NCBI GenBank assembly: GCA_022710975.1
Contig: JAKLGA010000008.1
Coordinates: 1 to 64,000, forward strand
Length of the DNA: 64,000 nt
Source: Myxococcota bacterium
GTDB taxonomy: Bacteria; Myxococcota; B64-G9
Direction of reading: 5' to 3'
Each line of letters begins with the position of its first letter. Positions within the stretch are counted from its first letter, which is position 1. Position numbers and translations under genes: made by a program. The notes beneath the pieces are model-generated. The model was not told where the DNA came from. It made no database searches and worked only from the letters and a program-made list of their open reading frames with translations. Below are positions 5,838 to 18,566 of this stretch, in pieces.

Positions 5838-5866
5838 TTTATCCGACAGGGCGCCGGAATTTGCAA
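5838..5866 (-). promoter_or_regulatory. lgt promoter
   Basis: Minus-strand TTGCAA (5866-5861), 17-bp spacer, GATAAA (5843-5838). The -10 ends 6 bp before the lgt ATG, so transcription should start at the initiation codon. No Shine-Dalgarno sequence is present. Confidence 0.55.
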
Positions 5867-5944
5867 GCGCGCCGGCGCGCGGAGTTGCGGACGGCGCGGG
5901 TTGCGGGTAAGCTCCGAGCCCGAGGACGGTCCGAGGAGGAGCGC

Positions 5945-7225
5945 ATGCCGAGTTGCCCGCAGTGCGGCGCCGAGAACAGGGAGGGGGCCCGCTTCTGCGT
6001 GGCCTGCGGCGCGCCGCAGGCCAGCGACGCCCCGCCCGACCTCGACTCCTTCCTCGACGCCGGCATCGTGTGCCCGAAGTGCGACACCTACAACGAGCCC
6101 AACCAGAAGAGCTGCACCGCCTGCGGCGAGAGCCTGAGCGGGCTGACCGGCCTGATCCGCTCCGTGGACGCCCCGGCCGCGGCCCAGGCTCCGGCCCCGA
6201 AGGATCCGGCCCCGGCCCCCCGGCCCGATCCGACCCCGGCTCCGAAGGATCCGACCCCGGCCCCGACCCCCGCCTCGCTGCCCCGCGCGGAGGCCAGGCC
6301 GAGCTCCCACCGGCAGCTCGAGATCGTCTCCGCCACACCGGCTCCCGTGCGCGCGGTGCCGCTCGAGGCGGCCAACCCCACGGGCACCATGCCGATCGAG
6401 CTGGTGCCCAAGCGCCCGACCGCGCCCATGGCCTCGGCCGTCCCGGCCTCGGCCTCCCTGTGCCCGGTGTGCCGGGCGGCCCTGCCGGCCGGCCAGAGCG
6501 TGTGCCTGGCCTGCGGCCAGCGCATCGCGCCGCCGCCGCCGCCGCTGAACGAGACGGCCTCCAACCTGAGCATCCGCCTGCGCCTGGTGCGCGGCTACGG
6601 GCGCGAGGACTCGACCTTCCCGGTGGGCCCCCAGGGCCTGACCATCGGCCGCCGGGGCGCCATGGTGAGCATCGCCGACGATCCCTTCCTGGCCCCCCGC
6701 CACCTGGCGCTGCGGCTGGACCAGGGCACGCTCGTGGCCGAGGATCAGGGCGGGCTGAACGGCACCTTCCTGCGCATCCGCGCGCTGACCGAGATCAAGC
6801 AGGGCGCCGAGTTCATCGCCGGCAACCAGCGCTTCATGCTGCTCGGGCTGGGCGGACCGACCACCGACGTGCGCATGCCCGTGTCCCAGGACACGCGCCC
6901 CTACGGCGGCCCGGTGCCCAAGCAGCTCTTCGTGGCCCTGCGGCTGCACCACGCCACGGCCTCCGGCCAGCCGGTGGGCGGCTCGGTGATCCTGCGCACC
7001 GGGCCCATCATCGCCATCGGCCAGCGGGGCTGCGATCTCAATTTCCCCACCGACCCGGCCCTGGCCCCGCACCACCTGGAGCTGCACCTGAAGCCCACCG
7101 GCATCGGGCTGGTGGAGATCGGCGCCACCAGCGGCGTGTTCCTGCGCCTGCAGCGGCCGACCGTGCTCAGGAACGGGGACGAGCTGCTGGCGGGCGACGA
7201 GATCTTCCGCGTCGAGATCGGCTAG
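5945..7225 (+). CDS. Zinc-ribbon protein with two FHA domains
   Basis: 426 residues from ATG 5945, with AGGAGGA 5 bases upstream. The N-terminus has two zinc-ribbon pairs (CPQC/CVAC at residues 4-22 and CPKC/CTAC at about 43-61), then a Pro/Ala linker of about 100 residues, a third CPVC/CLAC pair, and two forkhead-associated folds. FHA1 is around GLTIGRRGAMVSIADDPFLAPRH, FHA2 around IAIGQRGCDLNFPTDPALAPHH. FHA domains bind phosphothreonine; the GR...RH framework survives in FHA1, while FHA2 has GQ and HH in place of GR and RH, so its phosphopeptide binding may be lost. No signal peptide, so probably cytoplasmic. Faces the kinase gene at 7239-9032, a likely phosphorylation partner (inference). 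Confidence 0.85.
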   Translation: MPSCPQCGAENREGARFCVACGAPQASDAPPDLDSFLDAGIVCPKCDTYNEPNQKSCTACGESLSGLTGLIRSVDAPAAAQAPAPKDPAPAPRPDPTPAPKDPTPAPTPASLPRAEARPSSHRQLEIVSATPAPVRAVPLEAANPTGTMPIELVPKRPTAPMASAVPASASLCPVCRAALPAGQSVCLACGQRIAPPPPPLNETASNLSIRLRLVRGYGREDSTFPVGPQGLTIGRRGAMVSIADDPFLAPRHLALRLDQGTLVAEDQGGLNGTFLRIRALTEIKQGAEFIAGNQRFMLLGLGGPTTDVRMPVSQDTRPYGGPVPKQLFVALRLHHATASGQPVGGSVILRTGPIIAIGQRGCDLNFPTDPALAPHHLELHLKPTGIGLVEIGATSGVFLRLQRPTVLRNGDELLAGDEIFRVEIG

Positions 7226-7238
7226 GGGCGTACCCGGC

Positions 7239-9032
<1,794 letters not shown>

Positions 9033-9061
9033 CCAGACCCCCAACGCGTGGATCTGGCGGG

Positions 9062-9090
9062 TGTATATCCCAGGCCCGGGGCGGTTGCAA
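9062..9090 (-). promoter_or_regulatory. Promoter of the Ser/Thr kinase gene
   Basis: Minus strand: TTGCAA (9090-9085), 17-bp spacer, TATACA (9067-9062). Gives a predicted leader of about 23 nt before the ATG at 9032. Back to back with the plus-strand promoter at 9104-9133. Confidence 0.7.
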
Positions 9091-9103
9091 CCCCTGCGTC
9101 GGC

Positions 9104-9133
9104 TTGACACCCCGCGCGGGCGGGTGGTTCAAT
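9104..9133 (+). promoter_or_regulatory. Promoter of the double-FHA gene at 9165
   Basis: TTGACA (9104-9109), 18-bp spacer, TTCAAT (9128-9133). GAGAGGTGAT (9151-9160) is the ribosome-binding site. Only 13 bp separate it from the divergent kinase promoter, so the two could be co-regulated. Confidence 0.65.
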
Positions 9134-9164
9134 GGCCCCCACTCACGCGAGAGAGGTGATCCCC

Positions 9165-10253
9165 ATGATCAAGTGTTCCCAGTGCGGCCGGGAAAACGAC
9201 TCCTCGTTCAAGTTCTGCCTGGACTGCGGCAGCCCGCTGGCCCCGGCGGCGGCCGCCGCGGCCCCGGCTCCGGCCCCGGCCACGGTGCCCCAGGCCACGG
9301 CCGTGCCCGAGCCCCCCGCGGCCCGGGCCCCGGCGGCGCGCCCGCCCACCGCCCAGACGGCCCGGCCCGCCACCGGCCAGGTCAAGACCGGCGCCAGGCC
9401 GGCCGCGGCACCGGCCGCGCCCGCTCCCGCGCCCGCTCCCGCGCCCGCTGCCGCGGCCGCGGACCTGGTGGCGTGCCCGAAGTGCGACAACCGCATCCCG
9501 GCCACCATGGCCTTCTGCTCCTTCTGCGGCAACAACATGAAGGGCGCCGCGCCCGGGCGCGGGGCCACCATGTTCATGCACCAGGCGTCCCCCGAGGCGT
9601 CCAGCAAGCCGAAGGCGCGCATGGTGCTGATCAAGCCGGACGGCAGCGAGGGCACGGTGTTCACCCTGGCCGAGAAGACCGCCATCGGCCGCAGCCAGGG
9701 CGTGATCATGTTCCCGAAGGATCCGTACATCTCCCCCCGGCACGCCGAGATCCAGTTCAAGGACGGCCAGCTCAGCATCACCGATCTGGACTCGCTGAAC
9801 GGCGTGTACCGGCGCATGACCGCCGAGGAGCGCATCGTGCCGGGCACCTACTTCCGCATCGGGCGCCAGCTCCTCAGGCTGGAGGTGCCGGGCGAGTTCC
9901 AGGCGGTGTCCGCGCCCACGGCCCAGGGGGACGACAGCCAGTTCTGGGGCAGCCCCACGCCCCACGTGTGGGCGCGCCTGGTGCAGGTGCTCGAGGGCGG
10001 CAAGATCGGCGAGATCCACCTGCTCACCCAGGCCGAGGTCGTCATCGGCCGGGTGGACGGCGAGGTGCGCTTCCCCGAGGACGGCTTCATCTCCTCGCGC
10101 CACTGCCAGCTCATCAACCGCGAGGGCGACTGCTTCCTCCAGGACCTGGGCTCCTCCAACGGCACCTACCTGCGCATCCAGGGCAACGCCCCCCTGCTGG
10201 GGGGCGACAAGGTCCAGATCGGCAACCAGGTGCTGCGGCTCGACCTGCTGTGA
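9165..10253 (+). CDS. Zinc-ribbon protein with two FHA domains
   Basis: 362 residues. ATG 9165 is chosen over ATG 9132 because GAGAGGTGAT precedes it and the zinc ribbon CSQC/CLDC begins at residue 4. A Pro/Ala linker (about 30-105) leads to a second CPKC/CSFC ribbon, then two FHA domains. FHA1 is at about 158-250 with AIGRSQGVIMFPKDPYISPRHAE and DLDSLNGVYRR; FHA2 at about 265-355 with VIGRVDGEVRFPEDGFISSRHCQ and DLGSSNGTYLR. Both keep the GR, S-RH and NG residues needed to bind phosphothreonine, unlike FHA2 of the relative at 5945-7225. Probably cytoplasmic. Divergent from the kinase gene, so probably a substrate or reader of that kinase (inference). Confidence 0.88.
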   Translation: MIKCSQCGRENDSSFKFCLDCGSPLAPAAAAAAPAPAPATVPQATAVPEPPAARAPAARPPTAQTARPATGQVKTGARPAAAPAAPAPAPAPAPAAAAADLVACPKCDNRIPATMAFCSFCGNNMKGAAPGRGATMFMHQASPEASSKPKARMVLIKPDGSEGTVFTLAEKTAIGRSQGVIMFPKDPYISPRHAEIQFKDGQLSITDLDSLNGVYRRMTAEERIVPGTYFRIGRQLLRLEVPGEFQAVSAPTAQGDDSQFWGSPTPHVWARLVQVLEGGKIGEIHLLTQAEVVIGRVDGEVRFPEDGFISSRHCQLINREGDCFLQDLGSSNGTYLRIQGNAPLLGGDKVQIGNQVLRLDLL

Positions 10254-10316: not shown

Positions 10317-10353
10317 AGCAATTCTTCGCCCTGGGCAGCGGGCTCGAATTGCT
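10317..10353. terminator. Inverted repeat between convergent FHA genes
   Basis: AGCAATTC (10317-10324) and GAATTGCT (10346-10353) form an 8-bp stem around a 21-nt loop that contains GCCC/GGGC. It lies between two converging genes and overlaps the stop of the minus gene by two bases. A bidirectional terminator is plausible; there is no clear T-run. Confidence 0.4.
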
Positions 10354-11161
10354 AGCCGCCCCACAGCGCCAGACCGGCCGAGCAGGCCGCGGCCGCGAGC
10401 AGCCACGGCAGGGCCGAGGCCCGCCCTGCCACGGCGCGCGGGGCGGGCCGCAGCGCGGACTCCAGGCAGGGCTCGGGCTCCGCGTCCAGCTCCAGCCGCA
10501 GGCGCGAGCCGCCCAGCACGAAGCACTCGCCCGGGCCGAGCTCCGCCTCGCCCCGCACCCGGTGGCCGGCCACGCGCAGCCCGTTGGCCGAGCCGAGATC
10601 GCGCACCCGCACCCGCGCCCCGCGGCGCAGGACGGCGGCGTGCCGCCGCGAGACGCGCGGGTCGGGCAGCCTCAGGCCGCAGCCCGCGGCCCGCCCCAGG
10701 CTGAGCTCGGCCCCGTCCGGGAGCGGCGCCTGATCACCCCGCCCGGGCCCGTCCACGACCACCAGCCGGCCAGGCGCGGCCGGGGGCGCGAGCAGCCGCC
10801 CGGCCAGCGCCCGGGCCGTGGCCCGCGCGTCCGGGAGCGCCAGCGGATCGCCCGCCCACAGCCGCACCCGGAAGGACCCCAGCTCGAGCTCGTCGCCGGG
10901 CCGCAGCGGCACCGCCTGGCCCGGCTCGAGCCGGCGGCCGTTGAGCCGGGTGCCGTTGCGGCTGGCCAGGTCCTCCACCGTCCAGCCGGCCGGGCCGGCC
11001 GGGGCCACGCGCGCGTGGCGCAGCGACACGCTCGGGTCGGGCAGGGCGAGCTCCAGGCCGTCCTCTCGCCCGAGCAGGGCGCCCGCGGACCCGAGCGGCA
11101 CCTCGCGCCGCAGGCCGGCCAGGCTGCCCTCGGGCGCCAGCGCCACCAGCCAGGCCTCCAC
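10352..11161 (-). CDS. Tail-anchored protein with two FHA domains
   Basis: 269 residues from GTG 11161. FHA1 at about 15-105 (LLGREDGLELALPDPSVSLRHA, DLASRNGTRLN) and FHA2 at about 130-225 (LSLGRAAGCGLRLPDPRVSRRHA, DLGSANGLRVAG) both keep the GR, S-RH and NG residues. A basic stretch and one C-terminal hydrophobic helix (about 250-267) anchor it to the membrane with the FHA part in the cytoplasm. It is the last cistron of the operon from 14633: its start lies 3 bp after the TPR lipoprotein stop. FHA-fold domains occur in SctD, an inner-ring protein of type III secretion, but SctD has a single N-terminal FHA and a large periplasmic part, so this is not SctD. More likely an adaptor linking kinase signalling to the export gate (inference). 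Confidence 0.82.
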   Translation of the reverse strand: MEAWLVALAPEGSLAGLRREVPLGSAGALLGREDGLELALPDPSVSLRHARVAPAGPAGWTVEDLASRNGTRLNGRRLEPGQAVPLRPGDELELGSFRVRLWAGDPLALPDARATARALAGRLLAPPAAPGRLVVVDGPGRGDQAPLPDGAELSLGRAAGCGLRLPDPRVSRRHAAVLRRGARVRVRDLGSANGLRVAGHRVRGEAELGPGECFVLGGSRLRLELDAEPEPCLESALRPAPRAVAGRASALPWLLAAAACSAGLALWGG

Positions 11162-11164
11162 GGC

Positions 11165-11710
11165 TCACCTCCCCGGCCCGGCCGCGCGGAGCTCGGCCAG
11201 CGCGGCGCGCAGGGGCTGCAGCCAGGCGTCGTCGGGCGCCAGGGCCGTGAGCCGGCGGAGCTGCTCCTCGGCCGCCCCGAGGTCGCCGCGCTCCAGCCCG
11301 AGCAGGACCAGGTTGCGGCGCGGGTCGAGGGCCCCGGGATCGAGGGCCAGGGCGTCCAGGTAGCGCGCCTCGGCCTCCTCGAGCCGGCCCTGGGCGCGGG
11401 CCACCGCCCCGCCCAGGTTGTGGGCCTGGACCAGATCCGGCCGGCAGTCGAGCGCCTGGACCACCAGCGCCTCGGCGCGCTCGAGCTGGCCGGCCCGGTA
11501 GGCCAGCAGCGCCAGGTTGGCGAGCGCGTCCGCGAAGCAGGGCTGGTACTCCAGGCTGACCTGCAGGGCGGCCCGGGCCCCCTCGGCGTCGCCCACCCGC
11601 AGGCGCTCGACCCCCAGGCGGTTCATGCGCACCGCCTCCGGGGGGACGGCCCCGCCGCCCAGGCAGCCCGACAGGCACGCGGCCAGCGCCAGGACGGACA
11701 CGCCTCTCAT
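11165..11710 (-). CDS. TPR lipoprotein in the export-gate operon
   Basis: 181 residues from ATG 11710, which overlaps the sctV/flhA-like stop by 4 bases (ATGA), so translation is coupled. A signal peptide ends in the lipobox LSGC (Cys16). The rest is about four TPR units (e.g. MNRLGVERLRVGDAEGARAA, ALANLALLAYRAGQLERAEAL, AHNLGGAVARAQGRLEEAEA). Small TPR lipoproteins of this type act as pilotins that help secretins assemble, for example PilF/PilW in type IV pili. A pilotin-like role next to export-gate genes is possible but not shown; no secretin gene lies in this operon. Confidence 0.8.
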   Translation of the reverse strand: MRGVSVLALAACLSGCLGGGAVPPEAVRMNRLGVERLRVGDAEGARAALQVSLEYQPCFADALANLALLAYRAGQLERAEALVVQALDCRPDLVQAHNLGGAVARAQGRLEEAEARYLDALALDPGALDPRRNLVLLGLERGDLGAAEEQLRRLTALAPDDAWLQPLRAALAELRAAGPGR

Positions 11711-13578
11711 CTCCCACCTCCCCGCGCCGGGGACGGCGCGCCCAGCCCCACCCGGCCCACGGGCTGGATGGCGACCTGGGGTTCGAGCTCCAGGAAACTC
11801 ACCACGCGCACGTCGGGGAACACCGCCCCGACCAGCCGCCAGAAGGGCCGGCGCACCTCGGGCCGGCACAGCACCACCGGTGCGCCCTCGGCCCGGGCCC
11901 CGCCCAGCGCGCGCTCCAGGCCCGCCAGCACCGCCTCGGCCTCGGCCGGCTCCATGACCAGGCTGGCCCCGGCGGCGCCCGGGACGACCGCGGCCGCCAC
12001 CCGGCGCTCGAGCTCCGGGTCCAGGAGCCAGGCCCGCAGCCGCCCCTCGGGCGCCAGCCGGTGCGAGATGAACGGCCGCAGCCCCTCGCGCACCCGCTCG
12101 GCCAGCACGGCCGGATCGGCCTCCTGCCGGGCGTGCTCGGCCAGGCTGGTGAGCACCGCCCGCAGGCAGGCGACCGGCACCTGCTCCTCCACCAGCCGGG
12201 TCAGCACCTCGGACAGGAGCACCGGCGGCACCAGCCGCGGCACCACCTCGCGCACCAGGGCCGGCTGATCGCGCTCCAGCGCGTCGAGCAGGTCCTGCGT
12301 CTCCTGCACCCCCACGCAGCGGGCCGCGGCCCGCCTCAGGCCCGCCTCCAGCCCGGCCGGCCCCGCGGCCAGCGCGCCGGCGGCCGCCGGGGCGCCGTCC
12401 AGGAGCAGCGTCCAGCGGCCGCCCTGGGCGCCCGGGCCGCGGACGAGCGGCGGGAGCGGCACGCCCAGCTCGTCGCCCACCGCCCGGCGCAGGGCCTCGG
12501 CCCCCTCCCAGAAGCCCGGCGCCGGGGGATCCGCGGGCAGCCGGAGCTCCAGGCACCCGCCCCGCCGGCCGCGGGCCGGGACCTCGGCCGCGGCCGCGCG
12601 GCGAGAGGCCCGCCGCCCCAGCCAGGCGCCCGCGCCGGCCAGGCAGGCGCCCAGCCCGCCGAAGGCCAGGCCAGGCATGCCCGGCACCAGCCCGATCAGC
12701 GCGAGCGCCCCGCCGGCCAGCACCAGCGCCTCGGGGTGGGCGCCGAGCTGGCTGCCGAGCTGGCGCCCCAGCCCCTGCTCAGCCCGCTCGGGCCGCACCC
12801 GGGTGACCAGGAGCCCGGCCGCGGTGGACACGAGCAGGGCCGGGATCTGGGTCACCAGCCCGTCGCCGATGGTCAGCACGCTGTAGGTGGAGGCCGCCTC
12901 GGCCGCGCCCAGCCCGCGCTGCAGGCAGCCGATCAGCAGGCCGCCCACCAGGTTGACCGCGGTGATCACCAGCCCGGCCACGGCGTCGCCCTTGATGAAC
13001 TTCATGGCCCCGTCCATGGCGCCGTGGAACTGGCTCTCGCGCTCGAGCTCGAGCCGCCGCCGCCCGGCTGCCTCGGCGTCCAGCAGGCCCGCGCGCAGAT
13101 CGGCGTCGATGCTCATCTGCTTGCCGGGCAGCCCGTCCAGGTGGAAGCGGGCGGTGACCTCGGCCACACGCTCGGCGCCCTTGGCGATCACGATGAACTG
13201 CACCACCGTCAGGATCAGGAACACCACCCCGCCCACCACCGGGTCGCCGGCGGTGGCGAACTCGCCGAAGGCCTGCACCACCCGGCCGGCGTCCGCCCGG
13301 CCCAGGATCAGCCGGGTGGTGGACACGTTGAGCGCCAGGCGGAAGAGGGTGGCCATCAGCAGCAGCGTGGGGAAGGCGGAGACCTGGAGCGCCGCCCCGG
13401 CCCGGGCGGCCAGCAGCAGCAGCACCAGCGACAGCGCCAGGTTGCAGCTCAACAGCGCGTCCATGGCCCAGGGGGGCAGCGGCAGGACCAGGATGGCGGC
13501 GATCCCCAGCAGGGCCCCGCCCACCGCCGCCTCGCTCCGCCCGGGCAGGCCCCAGCGGGTCGGCCAGCCGCTCCTCAT
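11707..13578 (-). CDS. Type III export-gate protein, SctV/FlhA family
   Basis: 623 residues, shorter than typical FlhA (about 690). Forms the nonameric gate of flagellar or injectisome type III export. The N-terminal half has about eight membrane segments and the FHIPEP signatures: RLALNVSTTRLIL, QFIVIAKGAERVAEVTARF, MSIDADLRAG, FHGAMDGAMKFIKGDAVAG and LTIGDGLVTQIPALL. The cytoplasmic C-terminal half has the expected four-subdomain outline (VQETQDLLDALERD, VPRLVPPVLLSEVLTRLVEE, VVLCRPEVRRPFWRL). Downstream of the sctU/flhB-like gene with a 4-base overlap. No flagellar or injectisome partner genes flank it, so flagellar versus secretion origin cannot be decided from this window. Confidence 0.92.
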   Translation of the reverse strand: MRSGWPTRWGLPGRSEAAVGGALLGIAAILVLPLPPWAMDALLSCNLALSLVLLLLAARAGAALQVSAFPTLLLMATLFRLALNVSTTRLILGRADAGRVVQAFGEFATAGDPVVGGVVFLILTVVQFIVIAKGAERVAEVTARFHLDGLPGKQMSIDADLRAGLLDAEAAGRRRLELERESQFHGAMDGAMKFIKGDAVAGLVITAVNLVGGLLIGCLQRGLGAAEAASTYSVLTIGDGLVTQIPALLVSTAAGLLVTRVRPERAEQGLGRQLGSQLGAHPEALVLAGGALALIGLVPGMPGLAFGGLGACLAGAGAWLGRRASRRAAAAEVPARGRRGGCLELRLPADPPAPGFWEGAEALRRAVGDELGVPLPPLVRGPGAQGGRWTLLLDGAPAAAGALAAGPAGLEAGLRRAAARCVGVQETQDLLDALERDQPALVREVVPRLVPPVLLSEVLTRLVEEQVPVACLRAVLTSLAEHARQEADPAVLAERVREGLRPFISHRLAPEGRLRAWLLDPELERRVAAAVVPGAAGASLVMEPAEAEAVLAGLERALGGARAEGAPVVLCRPEVRRPFWRLVGAVFPDVRVVSFLELEPQVAIQPVGRVGLGAPSPARGGGR

Positions 13579-14633
13579 GGAATCTCCTCCCGTCCGGCCG
13601 CGCGCGCCGCGCCGGCGGACGTCCCCAGGGCCGCGGCCACCACCCGCAGCACCTCGGCCGCGGCCGCGTACAGCCTCTCCGGGATCAGCTCGCCCGGCTC
13701 CAGCCGCTGGAGCGCGCGGGCCAGCTCCACGTGCCGCACGACCGGCAGGCCCAGGCGCGCGGCCTCAGCCCGCAGGCGCCTGGCGGCCTCCCCCACCCCG
13801 GCGGCCACCAGCACCGGGGCCGGGTCCTCGCCCGGCGCGTAGCGCAGCGCGGCCGCAGCGTGGGTGGGGTTGACCACCAGCACGCTGGCCCCGCGGAGCC
13901 CCGGCCCCTGGGCGGCCTGGCGGTGCCGGCGCCTGCGCTCGGCCCGCACCGCGGGATCGCCCTCCTCCTGCCGGTGCTCCTCACGCACCTCCTGGCGGGT
14001 CATGCGCTGGCGCCGCAGGAAGCGCAGGCGCTCGAGCCAGAGGTCGAGCAGCGCGAGCGCCAGGTGGGCCGCGATCAGCCCGGCCGCCCCGCGCGCGAGC
14101 AGCTCGAGCGCGGCCCGGGCCGCGCCGGCCGCGCCGCCCCGGGCGGCCGCCACCAGGCCCTGCCCGGATGCGCCGGCCAGGGCGGCCCAGCCGGCCAGGA
14201 CGAGGCAGGCCGCCCGCGCGAGCGTCCAGCCGAGCTCGAGCAGCCGCTCGCGGCCGAATAGCCGGCCGAGGCCCGCCAGGGGCGAGAGCCGCCCCAGCTC
14301 CAGCCGCAGGCGGAGGCGCAGCCCCTTCTGCAGCCCGCCCGCCAGGCAGGCGCCCGCCGCCGCGCCCAGGCCGACCGCGGCCGTGGCGCGGAGGAGCGCG
14401 AGGAGCGCGTCGCGCCAGGGCGGCTCGGGCCGCCCGGCCAGGGCGCACGCCAAAAGCGCCCGCAGCCCGAGCAGGGCGCCGGGCAGGGCGAGCAGGAGCC
14501 CTCCGAGCCCGCCCAGGGCCGAGGCCACCGCCAGCGCCTGCCTGGACACGGGCGCCTCGCCCCGCTCCCGGGCGCGCCGGAGCTTCCTCTGGCTGGGGGG
14601 CTCGGTGGCCCCCTCTCGTTTCTCGGCTCCCAT
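13575..14633 (-). CDS. Type III export switch protein, SctU/FlhB family
   Basis: 352 residues from ATG 14633 (GTG 14642 is an alternative; neither has a Shine-Dalgarno). The N-terminus EKREGATEPPSQRKLRRARERGE is the classic FlhB/SctU opening. Four hydrophobic segments follow, then the cytoplasmic domain with the self-cleaving NPTH motif (Asn255-Pro256), which switches export from early to late substrates. The C-terminal domain ends with LEPGELIPERLYAAAAEVLRVV, as in the family. The membrane part is unusually Ala/Leu/Arg-rich, and the usual Lys after the cleavage domain strand (AKG) is AAG here. First gene of the operon sctU-sctV-TPR lipoprotein-FHA; the genes overlap or nearly touch. Confidence 0.92.
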   Translation of the reverse strand: MGAEKREGATEPPSQRKLRRARERGEAPVSRQALAVASALGGLGGLLLALPGALLGLRALLACALAGRPEPPWRDALLALLRATAAVGLGAAAGACLAGGLQKGLRLRLRLELGRLSPLAGLGRLFGRERLLELGWTLARAACLVLAGWAALAGASGQGLVAAARGGAAGAARAALELLARGAAGLIAAHLALALLDLWLERLRFLRRQRMTRQEVREEHRQEEGDPAVRAERRRRHRQAAQGPGLRGASVLVVNPTHAAAALRYAPGEDPAPVLVAAGVGEAARRLRAEAARLGLPVVRHVELARALQRLEPGELIPERLYAAAAEVLRVVAAALGTSAGAARAAGREEIP

Positions 14634-14670
14634 CGCGGCCACGCCAATTCAAGCGGCGTGCCATCTTCGG

Positions 14671-14891: not shown

Positions 14892-17342
14892 ATGAAGAGG
14901 AAGATTCAGAAGGTGGCGGTGCTCGGCTCGGGCGTCATGGGCACCGGCATCGCCGCGCACCTGGCCAACTGCGGCATCCGGAGCGTGCTCCTGGACATCG
15001 TGCCGAAGTACACCCCGGAGGACGAGAAGGCCGGGCTCAAGAAGGAGTCGCCGGCCTTCCGCAACAAGCTGGCCCTGCAGGCCGTGCAGGCCGCCATCAA
15101 GAACCGCAAGCCGATCCCGGCCTTCTACCACGACAAGTTCGCCGAGCTGATCACCTGCGGCAACTTCGACGACAACATGGGCTGGCTGGCCGAGTGCGAC
15201 TGGGTGATCGAGGTGGTGGTCGAGAACGTCGACATCAAGCGCAAGGTGTTCGCCAACGTCGAGAAGCACATGAAGAAGGGGGCCATCGTCTCCTCGAACA
15301 CCTCGGGCCTGCAGATCACCGCCATGACCGAAGGGCGCGGGCAGGACTTCAAGAAGAGCTTCCTGGTCACCCACTTCTTCAACCCGGTGCGCTTCATGCG
15401 CCTGCTGGAGGTCATCCCCGGCCCCGAGACCGACCCCGAGATCGTCGAGTTCATGGCCGAGTTCGGCGCCAACGTGCTGGGCAAGGGCGTGGTCCACGGC
15501 AAGGACACCGTCAACTTCGTGGCCAACCGCGTGGGCGTCTACAGCATGCTGCGGGCCATCAAGGAGATGATGGACAAGGACTACACCATCGAGGAGGTGG
15601 ACGCGATCGTCGGCCAGCCCATGGGCCGGCCCAAGACCGCGCTGTTCGGCACCGCCGACCTGGTGGGCATGGACGTCATCGGGCACATCGTCAAGAACTG
15701 CTACGAGGCGCTGACCAAGGACGAGGAGCGCGAGGTGTTCTCCCTGCCGCCCTTCATCCAGAAGATGATCGAGCAGGGCCGGCTGGGCGCCAAGACCAAG
15801 GGCGGCTTCTGGAAGAAGGAGAAGAGCGAGGGCGGCAAGACCAAGCTGGTCATCGACAAGAAGACCGGCGAGTACCGCCCGGCCGAAAAGGTGCGCATCG
15901 ACTCCATCGGGGTGGCCAAGAACACCGAGGATCCCAGGCAGCGCCTGGCCGAGTTCGTGTTCGCCGACGATCGCGCCGGCCAGTTCGCCTGGAGCGTGTT
16001 CGCCGACGGGCTGATCTACGCCGGCAACCGCCTGGGCGAGATCGCCGACGACATCGTGCAGATCGACAACGGCATGCGCTGGGGCTTCAACTGGGACATG
16101 GGTCCGTTCCAGGCCTGGGACGCGGTCGGCTTCGGCAAGGTGTGCGAGCGGATGAAGAAGGACGGCAAGAAGCTGCCGCCCATCGCGCTGGCCATGCAGA
16201 AGGCCAAGGCCGAGTCCTTCTACAAGGAGAAGGACGGCGAGGTCCTGTTCTTCGACCTGAAGAAGAAGGGCTACAAGCCGGTGCCCAAGGACCCCATGCA
16301 CATCGACCTCGAGCTGCTCAAGCGCAACGGCAAGGAGGTGGCCGGCAACACGGCCGCCAGCCTGATCGATCTCGGCGACGGGGTGCTGTGCTGCGAGTTC
16401 CACAGCAAGATGAACTCCATCGACGGGGACATCATCAGCATCATGGGCAAGGGCCTGGACATGCTCGAGGCCGACGACCAGTGGAAGGGCATGGTGATCG
16501 GCAACCAGGGCGAGAACTTCTGCGTGGGCGCCAACGTGATGCTGGTCTACATGGCCATCCAGCAGGCCAAGAGCGCCGAGAAGCCCGAGGAGGCCGAGGC
16601 CATCTGGCAGCAGCTCGAGGGCACGGTCAAGGCGCTGCAGGACACGCTCATGCGCTGCAAGTACTCGCCCAAGCCCGTGGTGTCCGCGCCCTTCGGCATG
16701 ACGCTCGGCGGCGGGGCCGAGGTCAGCATGGGCGCCGACCGCATCTGCGCGCACGCCGATCTCTTCATGGGCCTGGTGGAGATGGGCGTGGGGCTCATCC
16801 CCGGCGGCGGCGGCAACAAGGAGCTGCTCATCCGCCACCTGGAGGGCATCCCCGAGCTGGCCCAGGGCGTCAACCTGACCCCCTACCTGCAGCTCGTCTT
16901 CCAGGACATCGGCACGGCCAAGGTCAGCATGAGCGCCCACGAGGCCGTGGCCAACGGCTTCCTGCGCTCGACCGACAAGATCGTCACCAACAAGGACCAC
17001 CTGATCGGCACCGCCAAGAACATGGTGCTGGCCATGGCCCTCGAGGGCTACAAGCAGCCCCTGGAGCGCAAGCTGTCGCTGCCGGGCGACATGGGCTACG
17101 CCACCTTCAAGATGGTCATCGACTCGATGGCCAAGCAGCACCAGATCACCGAGTACGAGCAGGTCATGGCCAACAAGCTGGCCTTCGTGCTCACCGGCGG
17201 CCGGACCTCGCCCGCCGTGCCGGTCAGCGAGCGCTACCTGCTCGACATCGAGCGCGAGGCCTTCATGTGGCTCTGCCGCCAGGAGAAGACCCAGGAGCGC
17301 ATGGGCTACTTCCTGACCAACAACAAGCCGCTGCGGAACTGA
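14892..17342 (+). CDS. 3-hydroxyacyl-CoA dehydrogenase / enoyl-CoA hydratase
   Basis: 816 residues from ATG 14892 with GAGGAGGA upstream. Two-activity beta-oxidation enzyme: hydrates enoyl-CoA, then oxidises 3-hydroxyacyl-CoA with NAD. Order is dehydrogenase first: Rossmann motif VLGSGVMGTGIAAHLA (9-24), VVENVDIKRKVF, SSNTSGLQI and HFFNPVRFMRLLEVI with the catalytic His; a second dehydrogenase C-terminal unit around 360-430 (NRLGEIADD, WDMGPFQAWDAVG); then a crotonase fold from about 495 with GGGAEVSMGADRI and VEMGVGLIPGGGGNKE, which hold the two active-site Glu residues. This order matches Bacillus FadN rather than E. coli FadB/FadJ. The thiolase follows 36 bp later in the same operon. Confidence 0.92.
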   Translation: MKRKIQKVAVLGSGVMGTGIAAHLANCGIRSVLLDIVPKYTPEDEKAGLKKESPAFRNKLALQAVQAAIKNRKPIPAFYHDKFAELITCGNFDDNMGWLAECDWVIEVVVENVDIKRKVFANVEKHMKKGAIVSSNTSGLQITAMTEGRGQDFKKSFLVTHFFNPVRFMRLLEVIPGPETDPEIVEFMAEFGANVLGKGVVHGKDTVNFVANRVGVYSMLRAIKEMMDKDYTIEEVDAIVGQPMGRPKTALFGTADLVGMDVIGHIVKNCYEALTKDEEREVFSLPPFIQKMIEQGRLGAKTKGGFWKKEKSEGGKTKLVIDKKTGEYRPAEKVRIDSIGVAKNTEDPRQRLAEFVFADDRAGQFAWSVFADGLIYAGNRLGEIADDIVQIDNGMRWGFNWDMGPFQAWDAVGFGKVCERMKKDGKKLPPIALAMQKAKAESFYKEKDGEVLFFDLKKKGYKPVPKDPMHIDLELLKRNGKEVAGNTAASLIDLGDGVLCCEFHSKMNSIDGDIISIMGKGLDMLEADDQWKGMVIGNQGENFCVGANVMLVYMAIQQAKSAEKPEEAEAIWQQLEGTVKALQDTLMRCKYSPKPVVSAPFGMTLGGGAEVSMGADRICAHADLFMGLVEMGVGLIPGGGGNKELLIRHLEGIPELAQGVNLTPYLQLVFQDIGTAKVSMSAHEAVANGFLRSTDKIVTNKDHLIGTAKNMVLAMALEGYKQPLERKLSLPGDMGYATFKMVIDSMAKQHQITEYEQVMANKLAFVLTGGRTSPAVPVSERYLLDIEREAFMWLCRQEKTQERMGYFLTNNKPLRN

Positions 17343-17378
17343 GCGCAGGCAGCCAGAGAGAAGAAGAGGAGACACGCC

Positions 17379-18566
17379 ATGACCAGAGAGGCTGTCATCG
17401 TCAGCGCGGTCCGGTCCGCCATCGCCCGCCGCGGGCGCGGCAACTTCCGCGAGACCCACCCGATCCACTACGGCGGGCTGGTGGTCAAGGAGGCCGTGGC
17501 CCGGGCCAAGGGCCTGGACCCCATGGACATCGACGATCTCATCATCGGCTGCGCCATGCCCGAGGGCGAGCTGGGCATGAACCTGGCCCGGCTGGTGGCC
17601 TTCGCCGCGGGCCTGCCCTACCAGTCCTCGGCCGTGACCGTGAACCGCTTCTGCGCCTCGGGCCTGCAGAGCATCAGCCAGGCGGCCGAGCGCATCATGC
17701 TGGGCGAGGCCGACGTGGTGGTGGCCGGCGGGGTCGAGGACATGACCCACGTGCCCATGGGCGGCAACAAGCCGGTGGCCTACCCGCAGCTGGTGGACAA
17801 GTGGGTCGAGGCCTACAGCCCCATGGGGCTGACCGCCGAGAACGTGGCCAGGCGGCACAACATCACCCGCGAGCGCCAGGACCAGTTCGCCCTGCGGAGC
17901 CACCAGCGGGCCCTCAAGGCCATCGACGAGGGGCGCTTCAAGAGCCAGATCCTGCCCATCGAGACCGAGGTGTTCTCGGCCGGCCCGGACGGCCGGCCCG
18001 TGGCCAAGAAGGTCGTCCTGGACACGGACGAGGGCCCGCGCCGGGAGACCACCCTGGAGGGCCTGGCCAAGCTGAAGCCGGCCTTCGACCCGACCGGCAC
18101 CGTGACCGCCGGCAACTCGTCCCAGATGAACGACGGCGCGGCGGCGGTGGTGGTGATGAGCGCCGAGAAGGCCAAGGCGCTGAAGCTCAAGCCGCTGGCC
18201 ATCTACCGCCACTACCAGGTGGCCGGGGTGCCGCCCGAGGTGATGGGCGAGGGTCCGGCCTTCGCCATCCCCAAGCTGCTGAAGCGCGCCGGGCTGAAGA
18301 CCTCCGACATCGACGTGTACGAGGTCAACGAGGCCTTCGCCTCCCAGGCCATCTACTGCTGCGAGGACGTGCTGCACCTGGACATGGACAAGGTGAACCC
18401 GAACGGCGGCGCCATCGCCCTGGGGCACCCGCTGGGCTGCACGGGCTCGTTCCTGACCAACAAGCTGCTGTACGAGCTCGAGCGCACCAACGGCCGCTAC
18501 GGCGTGGTCAGCATGTGCATCGGCGGCGGCATGGGCGCGGCCGGCCTGTTCGAGCGGGTGAAGTAG
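17379..18566 (+). CDS. Acetyl-CoA acyltransferase (3-ketoacyl-CoA thiolase)
   Basis: 395 residues, usual thiolase length; AAGAAGAGGAG precedes ATG 17379. Cleaves 3-ketoacyl-CoA with CoA to give acetyl-CoA, completing the cycle begun by the upstream enzyme. Catalytic residues are all present: nucleophile Cys92 (NRFCASGLQS), His350 (GHPLGCTGS) and Cys380 (CIGGGMGAA); NEAFA is at 317-321. The N-terminus EAVIVSAVRSAIARRGRG is typical. Likely forms a trifunctional complex with the hydratase/dehydrogenase, as in FadA or FadI systems. No acyl-CoA dehydrogenase gene is in the window. Confidence 0.95.
   Translation: MTREAVIVSAVRSAIARRGRGNFRETHPIHYGGLVVKEAVARAKGLDPMDIDDLIIGCAMPEGELGMNLARLVAFAAGLPYQSSAVTVNRFCASGLQSISQAAERIMLGEADVVVAGGVEDMTHVPMGGNKPVAYPQLVDKWVEAYSPMGLTAENVARRHNITRERQDQFALRSHQRALKAIDEGRFKSQILPIETEVFSAGPDGRPVAKKVVLDTDEGPRRETTLEGLAKLKPAFDPTGTVTAGNSSQMNDGAAAVVVMSAEKAKALKLKPLAIYRHYQVAGVPPEVMGEGPAFAIPKLLKRAGLKTSDIDVYEVNEAFASQAIYCCEDVLHLDMDKVNPNGGAIALGHPLGCTGSFLTNKLLYELERTNGRYGVVSMCIGGGMGAAGLFERVK

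Follow-up and report, generated by a model that had tools for sequence, protein, structure and literature searches.

The minus strand of the window (the whole stretch of DNA that we analysed, 64,000 nucleotides of a Myxococcota genome) carries an operon that encodes the type III export-gate proteins SctU and SctV together with a TPR lipoprotein and a tail-anchored protein containing two FHA domains. The question that this locus raises is whether such a gate stands alone, as was proposed in a preliminary description that called it an orphan, or is part of a type III secretion system (T3SS) whose remaining genes lie elsewhere. Open reading frames and Pfam searches bear out the four-gene operon of that description, with ATGA overlaps at 13575-13578 and 11707-11710 and a 3-bp gap at 11162-11164. 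Its genes, and the neighbour that meets it tail-to-tail, are as follows.

13575-14642, minus strand: sctU (FlhB/YscU family); start GTG at 14642 or ATG at 14633; NPTH autocleavage motif intact.
11707-13578, minus strand: sctV (FlhA/YscV family), 623 aa; cytosolic subdomain SD2 missing; PF00771 at 3.4e-175 (Pfam).
11165-11710, minus strand: TPR lipoprotein; ATG at 11710 overlaps the sctV stop; lipobox LSGC; TPR_19 at 8.5e-11 (Pfam).
10352-11161, minus strand: double-FHA protein; single C-terminal membrane helix, periplasmic domain absent; FHA at 7.3e-31 and YscD_cpl at 4.8e-25 (Pfam).
9132-10253, plus strand: zinc-ribbon double-FHA cytoplasmic protein, tail-to-tail with the gate operon; Pfam DZR and FHA.

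The window SctU matches PF01312 at 1.6e-67 (Pfam) and has as its top NCBIfam model TIGR01404 (SctU), with 198.7 bits, a score under the model cutoff of 358; NPTH was also read in four orthologues from f1, the uncultured family of the source genome, of which we compared eight other genomes. We note that in a Myxococcaceae T3SS* locus (L045:1476-2883) SctU has NPDH at the NPTH site, and behind it lies a second gene, which encodes a soluble SctU C-domain of 94 aa. When gene order was compared among the f1 relatives, a check that had been suggested at the outset, SctV, TPR lipoprotein, and double-FHA protein followed one another in all six that have SctV, with SctU ahead in the four that are readable (the G005 contig with the gate operon is only 4.5 kb), and the lipobox Cys of the TPR lipoprotein is invariant in 6/6 orthologues. 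Because it is conserved in the f1 relatives, the four-gene order is not a matter of chance. The zinc-ribbon FHA neighbour at 9132-10253 is present in G007, G004, G001, G008, and G006, which are the f1 loci reaching that side. Beyond it lies a zinc-ribbon Ser/Thr kinase with TPR (7239-9110, minus strand), flanked by zinc-ribbon double-FHA proteins at 5861-7225 (plus strand) and 9132-10253; this kinase gene adjoins the gate operon only in the source genome and G006. On the opposite side, and divergent from the gate operon, is a probably unrelated fatty-acid oxidation pair (FadB-like and thiolase, 14892-18566, plus strand), of which the FadB neighbour is kept in G004, G006, and G007.

The source genome (G000) is a 7.13 Mb draft in 29 contigs, 98.6% complete, and the window is part of its contig C28. 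A genome-wide search for partner genes, likewise suggested in the preliminary description, revealed on contig C12 (~298.8-307.1 kb) a tight 13-gene T3SS operon that lacks SctU and SctV. Its order, as assigned with Pfam and NCBIfam, is SctF-like (149 aa), SctI-like (117 aa), SctJ, SctK, SctL, SctN, SctO, SctP, SctQ, FliO-like, SctR, SctS, SctT, where SctK, SctO, and SctP are named from gene position only and the SctF-like and SctI-like names reflect sub-threshold matches. The genome has one SctS, one SctJ/FliF, one type III SctN, and one SctV, the first three of which were found on C12 only, in agreement with the absence of SctR/S/T/N/J from the window that had been pointed out before. The core set of SctR, SctS, SctT, SctU, and SctV with SctN and SctJ is present within this one genome, spread over the C12 operon and the window operon. 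Three secretin genes occur in the genome, in T4P-like, Tad-like, and T2SS-like neighbourhoods (for T4P-like and T2SS-like, the assignment comes from inspection of the adjacent proteins), and no dedicated secretin for the T3SS was found there; in this the system matches the Myxo/T3SS* systems and differs from a canonical injectisome, which has its own SctC. Because the C12 operon has no SctU/V, the genes are single copies, and the secretins sit in other contexts, we conclude that a single secretin-less T3SS, divided in two, is encoded in this genome.

This arrangement recurs across the family. An SctV orthologue is found in 6/8 other f1 genomes, with 54-61% identity over the whole length between genera; gate operon neighbourhoods were seen in G001 and G004-G008, and a C12-type operon, again without SctU/V, was seen in G005, G006, G007, and G008. 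A search of the family genomes found neither SctV nor type III SctN in G002 and G003. The split into two operons is old and conserved in the family, because five family genomes carry both operons apart. The four window genes are thus not orphans: the missing partners form the operon on C12, and the four genes encode part of one divided secretin-less T3SS. The expectation that known type III loci keep their gate genes with their partners fails in Myxococcota, in which scattered gate genes are common and SctV often lies apart from SctR/S/T/U. At nine further loci (L113, L115, L118, L119, L121, L122, and L124-L126) SctV is ~60% identical to Myxococcaceae T3SS* SctV, and no SctR/S/T/U is present in the fetched flanks. 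At its sctT end, the second operon is flanked in G006 (L095:14823-16811) and G007 (L093:935-3334) by a further FHA protein with TPR, one of the two also with a thioredoxin-like domain. Taken together, we consider it probable, at roughly 0.7, that the window operon contributes the export gate, with two envelope partners, to one divided secretin-less T3SS of the Myxococcus T3SS* kind.

The two envelope partners are not confined to f1. The 'long' T3SS* locus of eight Myxococcaceae genomes has, next to SctV, a TPR lipoprotein and a convergently encoded, tail-anchored double-FHA protein, and genome-wide best hits indicate that this pair is orthologous to the f1 pair. Specifically, when f1-only FHA and TPR profiles were run against whole genomes, the best of ~35-38 FHA matches in G049, G053, and G015 was the SctV-adjacent double-FHA protein, at 2.3e-41 against 1.5e-22 for the next match in G053 and 6.0e-40 against 4.7e-23 in G015; in G049, where the match is split into two parts, the lead over the next is narrow (2.6e-25 against 4.4e-23). 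The best TPR-profile match in each of the three genomes is the neighbour of that FHA protein. The top FHA and TPR matches in G010 adjoin each other but lie away from SctV, and in G038, which has only a short locus and a flagellum-type locus, the FHA profile gives background matches only. The second FHA domain keeps the phosphothreonine-pocket residues G-R, S, H, and N in 13/13 proteins; in the first, the Asn is lost in all 13 but the window protein, and only there is the pocket complete. This pattern supports one structural and one phosphothreonine-reading FHA domain in each protein, and on these comparisons the FHA/TPR pair is a genuine part of the machine. The idea that the FHA/TPR linkage is meaningful has therefore held up. 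Through the pair, two components of the Myxococcus predation T3SS* can be named, and it points to control of that system by phosphothreonine.

Whether the double-FHA protein takes the place of SctD bears on its role. SctD has an N-terminal FHA domain, a helix, and a periplasmic ring-building domain, whereas in the double-FHA protein the helix lies at the very C terminus, and the SctD model TIGR02500 gives 20 bits with a cutoff of 86. A search with PF16693 (SctD periplasmic) gave no match, and the control genomes gave none either. The SctD of the published T3SS* inventory may, by elimination, be the double-FHA protein. The same divided T3SS could instead use this protein as a regulatory signalling scaffold and not as an SctD-like structural part, an alternative that we find conceivable but somewhat unlikely. 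It draws on the dozens of FHA proteins in each genome, on the TIGR02500 score, and on the absence of a periplasmic domain, owing to which the protein cannot form an SctD ring; against it stand the retention of the orthologous FHA/TPR pair in f1, Myxococcaceae, and G010 (there unlinked from SctV) and the fact that no other SctD candidate was seen in either operon. As for the TPR lipoprotein, which had been called pilotin-like, the lipobox and TPR are present as described, but a T3SS pilotin is an outer-membrane lipoprotein that serves the secretin of its system, and this T3SS lacks a dedicated one.

The gate itself is unusual in its cytosolic domain. SctV/FlhA proteins are described as sharing a family-wide conserved SD1-SD4 plan (PMC8223533), in which SD2 (YscV 439-492) is an insertion in SD1 (PMC9163089) and forms with SD4 the cleft in which complexes of chaperone and substrate dock (PMC9163089, PMC8223533). 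The alignment of the window SctV with Yersinia YscV (7alw) skips chain residues 444-504. Between fixed SD1 anchors there are 14-20 residues in 7/7 f1 gates (14 in the window SctV) versus 67-69 in 12 comparison SctV/FlhA proteins, which include the Myxococcus long and short gates. SD2 is thus absent from all seven f1 SctV proteins, with the boundary of the loss the same in each, and this is what is new here. In an AlphaFold2 model (pLDDT 82.9, pTM 0.51) the SD1 strand 396-402 runs directly into helix 403-420, and the top Foldseek matches of the model are SctV/FlhA cytosolic domains. Among 195 genomes of the phylum only eight gates gave an unbroken full-length SctV match, the seven of f1 and one from G020, which belongs to another family of the phylum. 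The G020 SctV (L043:7547-9454) has 21 residues between the SD1 anchors and no SD2, and it stands alone, its surroundings yielding no FHA protein, TPR lipoprotein, or further T3SS gene. An NCBIfam model that is itself short, NF004571 (584 positions), likewise aligns with the window SctV without a break, and the loss of SD2 may, given this match, have precedent elsewhere. No secretion-type TPR chaperone gene is present in either operon, whereas the Myxococcus T3SS* cluster has several (PMC10433427); their absence fits the loss of SD2. The preliminary description was right to suggest a remodelled export system, although the remodelling comes through SctV and its lost SD2, a reason it had not seen. 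A lineage of intact gates without SD2 amounts to a natural deletion experiment on what the chaperone cleft serves.

The split and the loss of SD2 could also be read as steps in the degeneration of a decaying T3SS, and neither a secretin nor a translocon was recognised and the system is missing from 2/9 family genomes. We consider decay improbable: all of the open reading frames are intact, SctV is conserved full-length between genera at the identities given above, the SD2 boundary is the same in 7/7 gates, and key motifs are kept. Decay was rejected on the same grounds for related Myxo systems by Abby and Rocha (PMC3459982).

More improbable still is a true orphan gate, that is, SctU/SctV with FHA and TPR partners in a new job that is unrelated to type III export and independent of C12. 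The two operons do lie on different contigs of a draft assembly, and the loss of SD2 could reflect lost substrate handling. Yet the C12 operon lacks exactly SctU and SctV, of which the genome has no other copy, five genomes have both operons and G002 and G003 have neither, and NPTH is intact.

A tree of SctV, the third check suggested at the outset, has a fully supported branch that sets the non-flagellar proteins, f1 included, apart; f1 forms its own clade (support 100), distinct from the flagellar-type FlhA of sister genomes. The f1 clade lies outside the one that joins the Myxococcus long locus, Chlamydiota, and Pseudomonadota (support 97). A branch with f1 and short Myxo SctV already on one side has support of just 27, and the deep order of the tree is unsure owing to long branches and composition bias. 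The f1 SctV does not group with the Myxococcus long (T3SS*) clade and, being in its own clade, is not a simple orthologue of the T3SS* gate. SctV scores 585.7 bits with the non-flagellar model versus 505.1 with the flagellar one, and SctU 198.7 versus 174.4; no FliF or FliQ homologue beyond the T3SS ones on C12 was found in the genome. We rejected a flagellar origin on the tree and the lack of other FliF/FliQ homologues. A relict or modified flagellar export gate is barely credible, since its support, namely that FlhA/FlhB models also match and that the C12 operon has a FliO-like gene, is outweighed by the model scores, the tree, the lack of any other FliF/FliQ homologue, and the occurrence of FliO in Myxococcota non-flagellar T3SS (PMC12248157).

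The Myxo systems are said to have no SctF (Abby and Rocha, PMC3459982; later review, PMC10433427). Homologues of the gene that opens the C12 operon occupy the corresponding position in short and long Myxo loci, and the long loci additionally carry 72-78-aa genes that share its C terminus, as many as four of them in tandem. These tandem SctF-like genes of Myxococcaceae T3SS* loci are located as follows.

L108:5595-7190: tandem SctF-like genes, 72-78 aa.
L120:11181-11865: tandem SctF-like genes, 72-78 aa.
L112:64-713: tandem SctF-like genes, 72-78 aa.

Pfam T3SS_needle_F matches several of the SctF-like proteins at 0.0018-0.085, below its cutoff, and a profile of the 72-74-aa proteins has as its best PDB match a needle C terminus (7y6c chain F, E 1.3e-4), a fragment that itself matches T3SS_needle_F at 1.9e-14. 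When 2,400 small ORFs taken from a further 27 SctV loci were searched with the needle-like profiles, none matched; sctF may sit outside the stretches covered. These similarities are suggestive of SctF-like genes in 'needleless' Myxo systems, and they make that published label directly testable.

At contacts with prey, the T3SS* of M. xanthus assembles together with the Kil Tad-like pilus, and prey lysis depends on this T3SS*, a requirement known only for this species (PMC12075869, PMC10433427); the KilF ATPase of M. xanthus has an N-terminal FHA domain (PMC8460266). The source genome has a Kil-like Tad locus 5-11 kb beyond the right end of the window, ~55 kb from the gate operon.

G000:C28:68588-75096 (L052:4588-11096): Kil-like Tad locus with double-FHA protein, FHA-CpaF ATPase, secretin, prepilin peptidase, and Flp-like pilin.

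Its FHA-CpaF ATPase is 72% identical to the Myxococcaceae homologue (G049), and this ATPase is found in 9/9 family genomes, including the two without a T3SS.

How might a divided T3SS of this composition work? We suggest that the tail-anchored double-FHA protein would replace the cytosolic part of SctD, with its degenerate first FHA domain serving as a structural, SctD-like module and its second, after a signal from a Ser/Thr kinase, anchoring the sorting platform (SctK/Q/L/N) at the gate, and that the TPR lipoprotein would tie the complex to the envelope. Since SD2 and a dedicated secretin are missing and neither operon holds a secretion-type TPR chaperone gene, the gate would probably export early substrates only (SctF-like, SctI-like, and SctP), building a periplasmic rod that could work beside the Kil-like Tad pilus of the same genome. 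In its fullest form this becomes a tentative proposal, which we think could be right but would not bet on: a gate without SD2, held by a phosphothreonine-reading double-FHA protein and not by an SctD ring, would build an SctF-like rod in the periplasm, making this a living secretin-less, chaperone-poor T3SS near the injectisome root, probably for contact-dependent predation, with the corollary that 'needleless' Myxo systems have needle-like subunits.

Set beside known systems, the f1 gate has the membrane domain, SD1, SD3, and SD4 of the canonical injectisome gate SctV/YscV but lacks SD2, one wall of the chaperone-docking cleft. The double-FHA protein shares with the SctD ring protein an FHA-type cytosolic domain (the YscD_cpl match) and one membrane helix, and differs in having two FHA domains, the second with a full phosphothreonine pocket, a helix at the C terminus, and no periplasmic ring domains. 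The 'needleless' T3SS* of Myxococcus xanthus (MXAN_2434-2464, the 'long' Myxo NF-T3SS) is likewise a secretin-less system of the Myxococcota with SctJ/L/N/Q/R/S/T/U/V and a FliO-like protein, has the orthologous double-FHA tail-anchored protein and TPR lipoprotein next to SctV (as read in the related genome G049), and finds a counterpart to its Kil partner in the Kil-like Tad locus of the f1 source genome. The f1 system differs from it in being encoded in two separate operons and not in one cluster, in an SctV that lacks SD2 and belongs to a different clade, and in operons that hold none of the secretion-type TPR chaperone genes, of which the Myxococcus cluster has several. With the Myxo 'short' NF-T3SS of Cystobacterineae (Abby and Rocha 2012) it shares a deep-branching position, and the SctF-like (149-aa) and SctI-like (117-aa) genes before sctJ match the short loci best among the Myxococcus loci; in the short loci, however, SctU/V remain within the cluster, SD2 is present, and no FHA/TPR pair adjoins SctV. 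On these resemblances the f1 system looks to be a mosaic, with needle- and rod-like genes most like those of the short locus and an FHA/TPR pair like that of the long locus.
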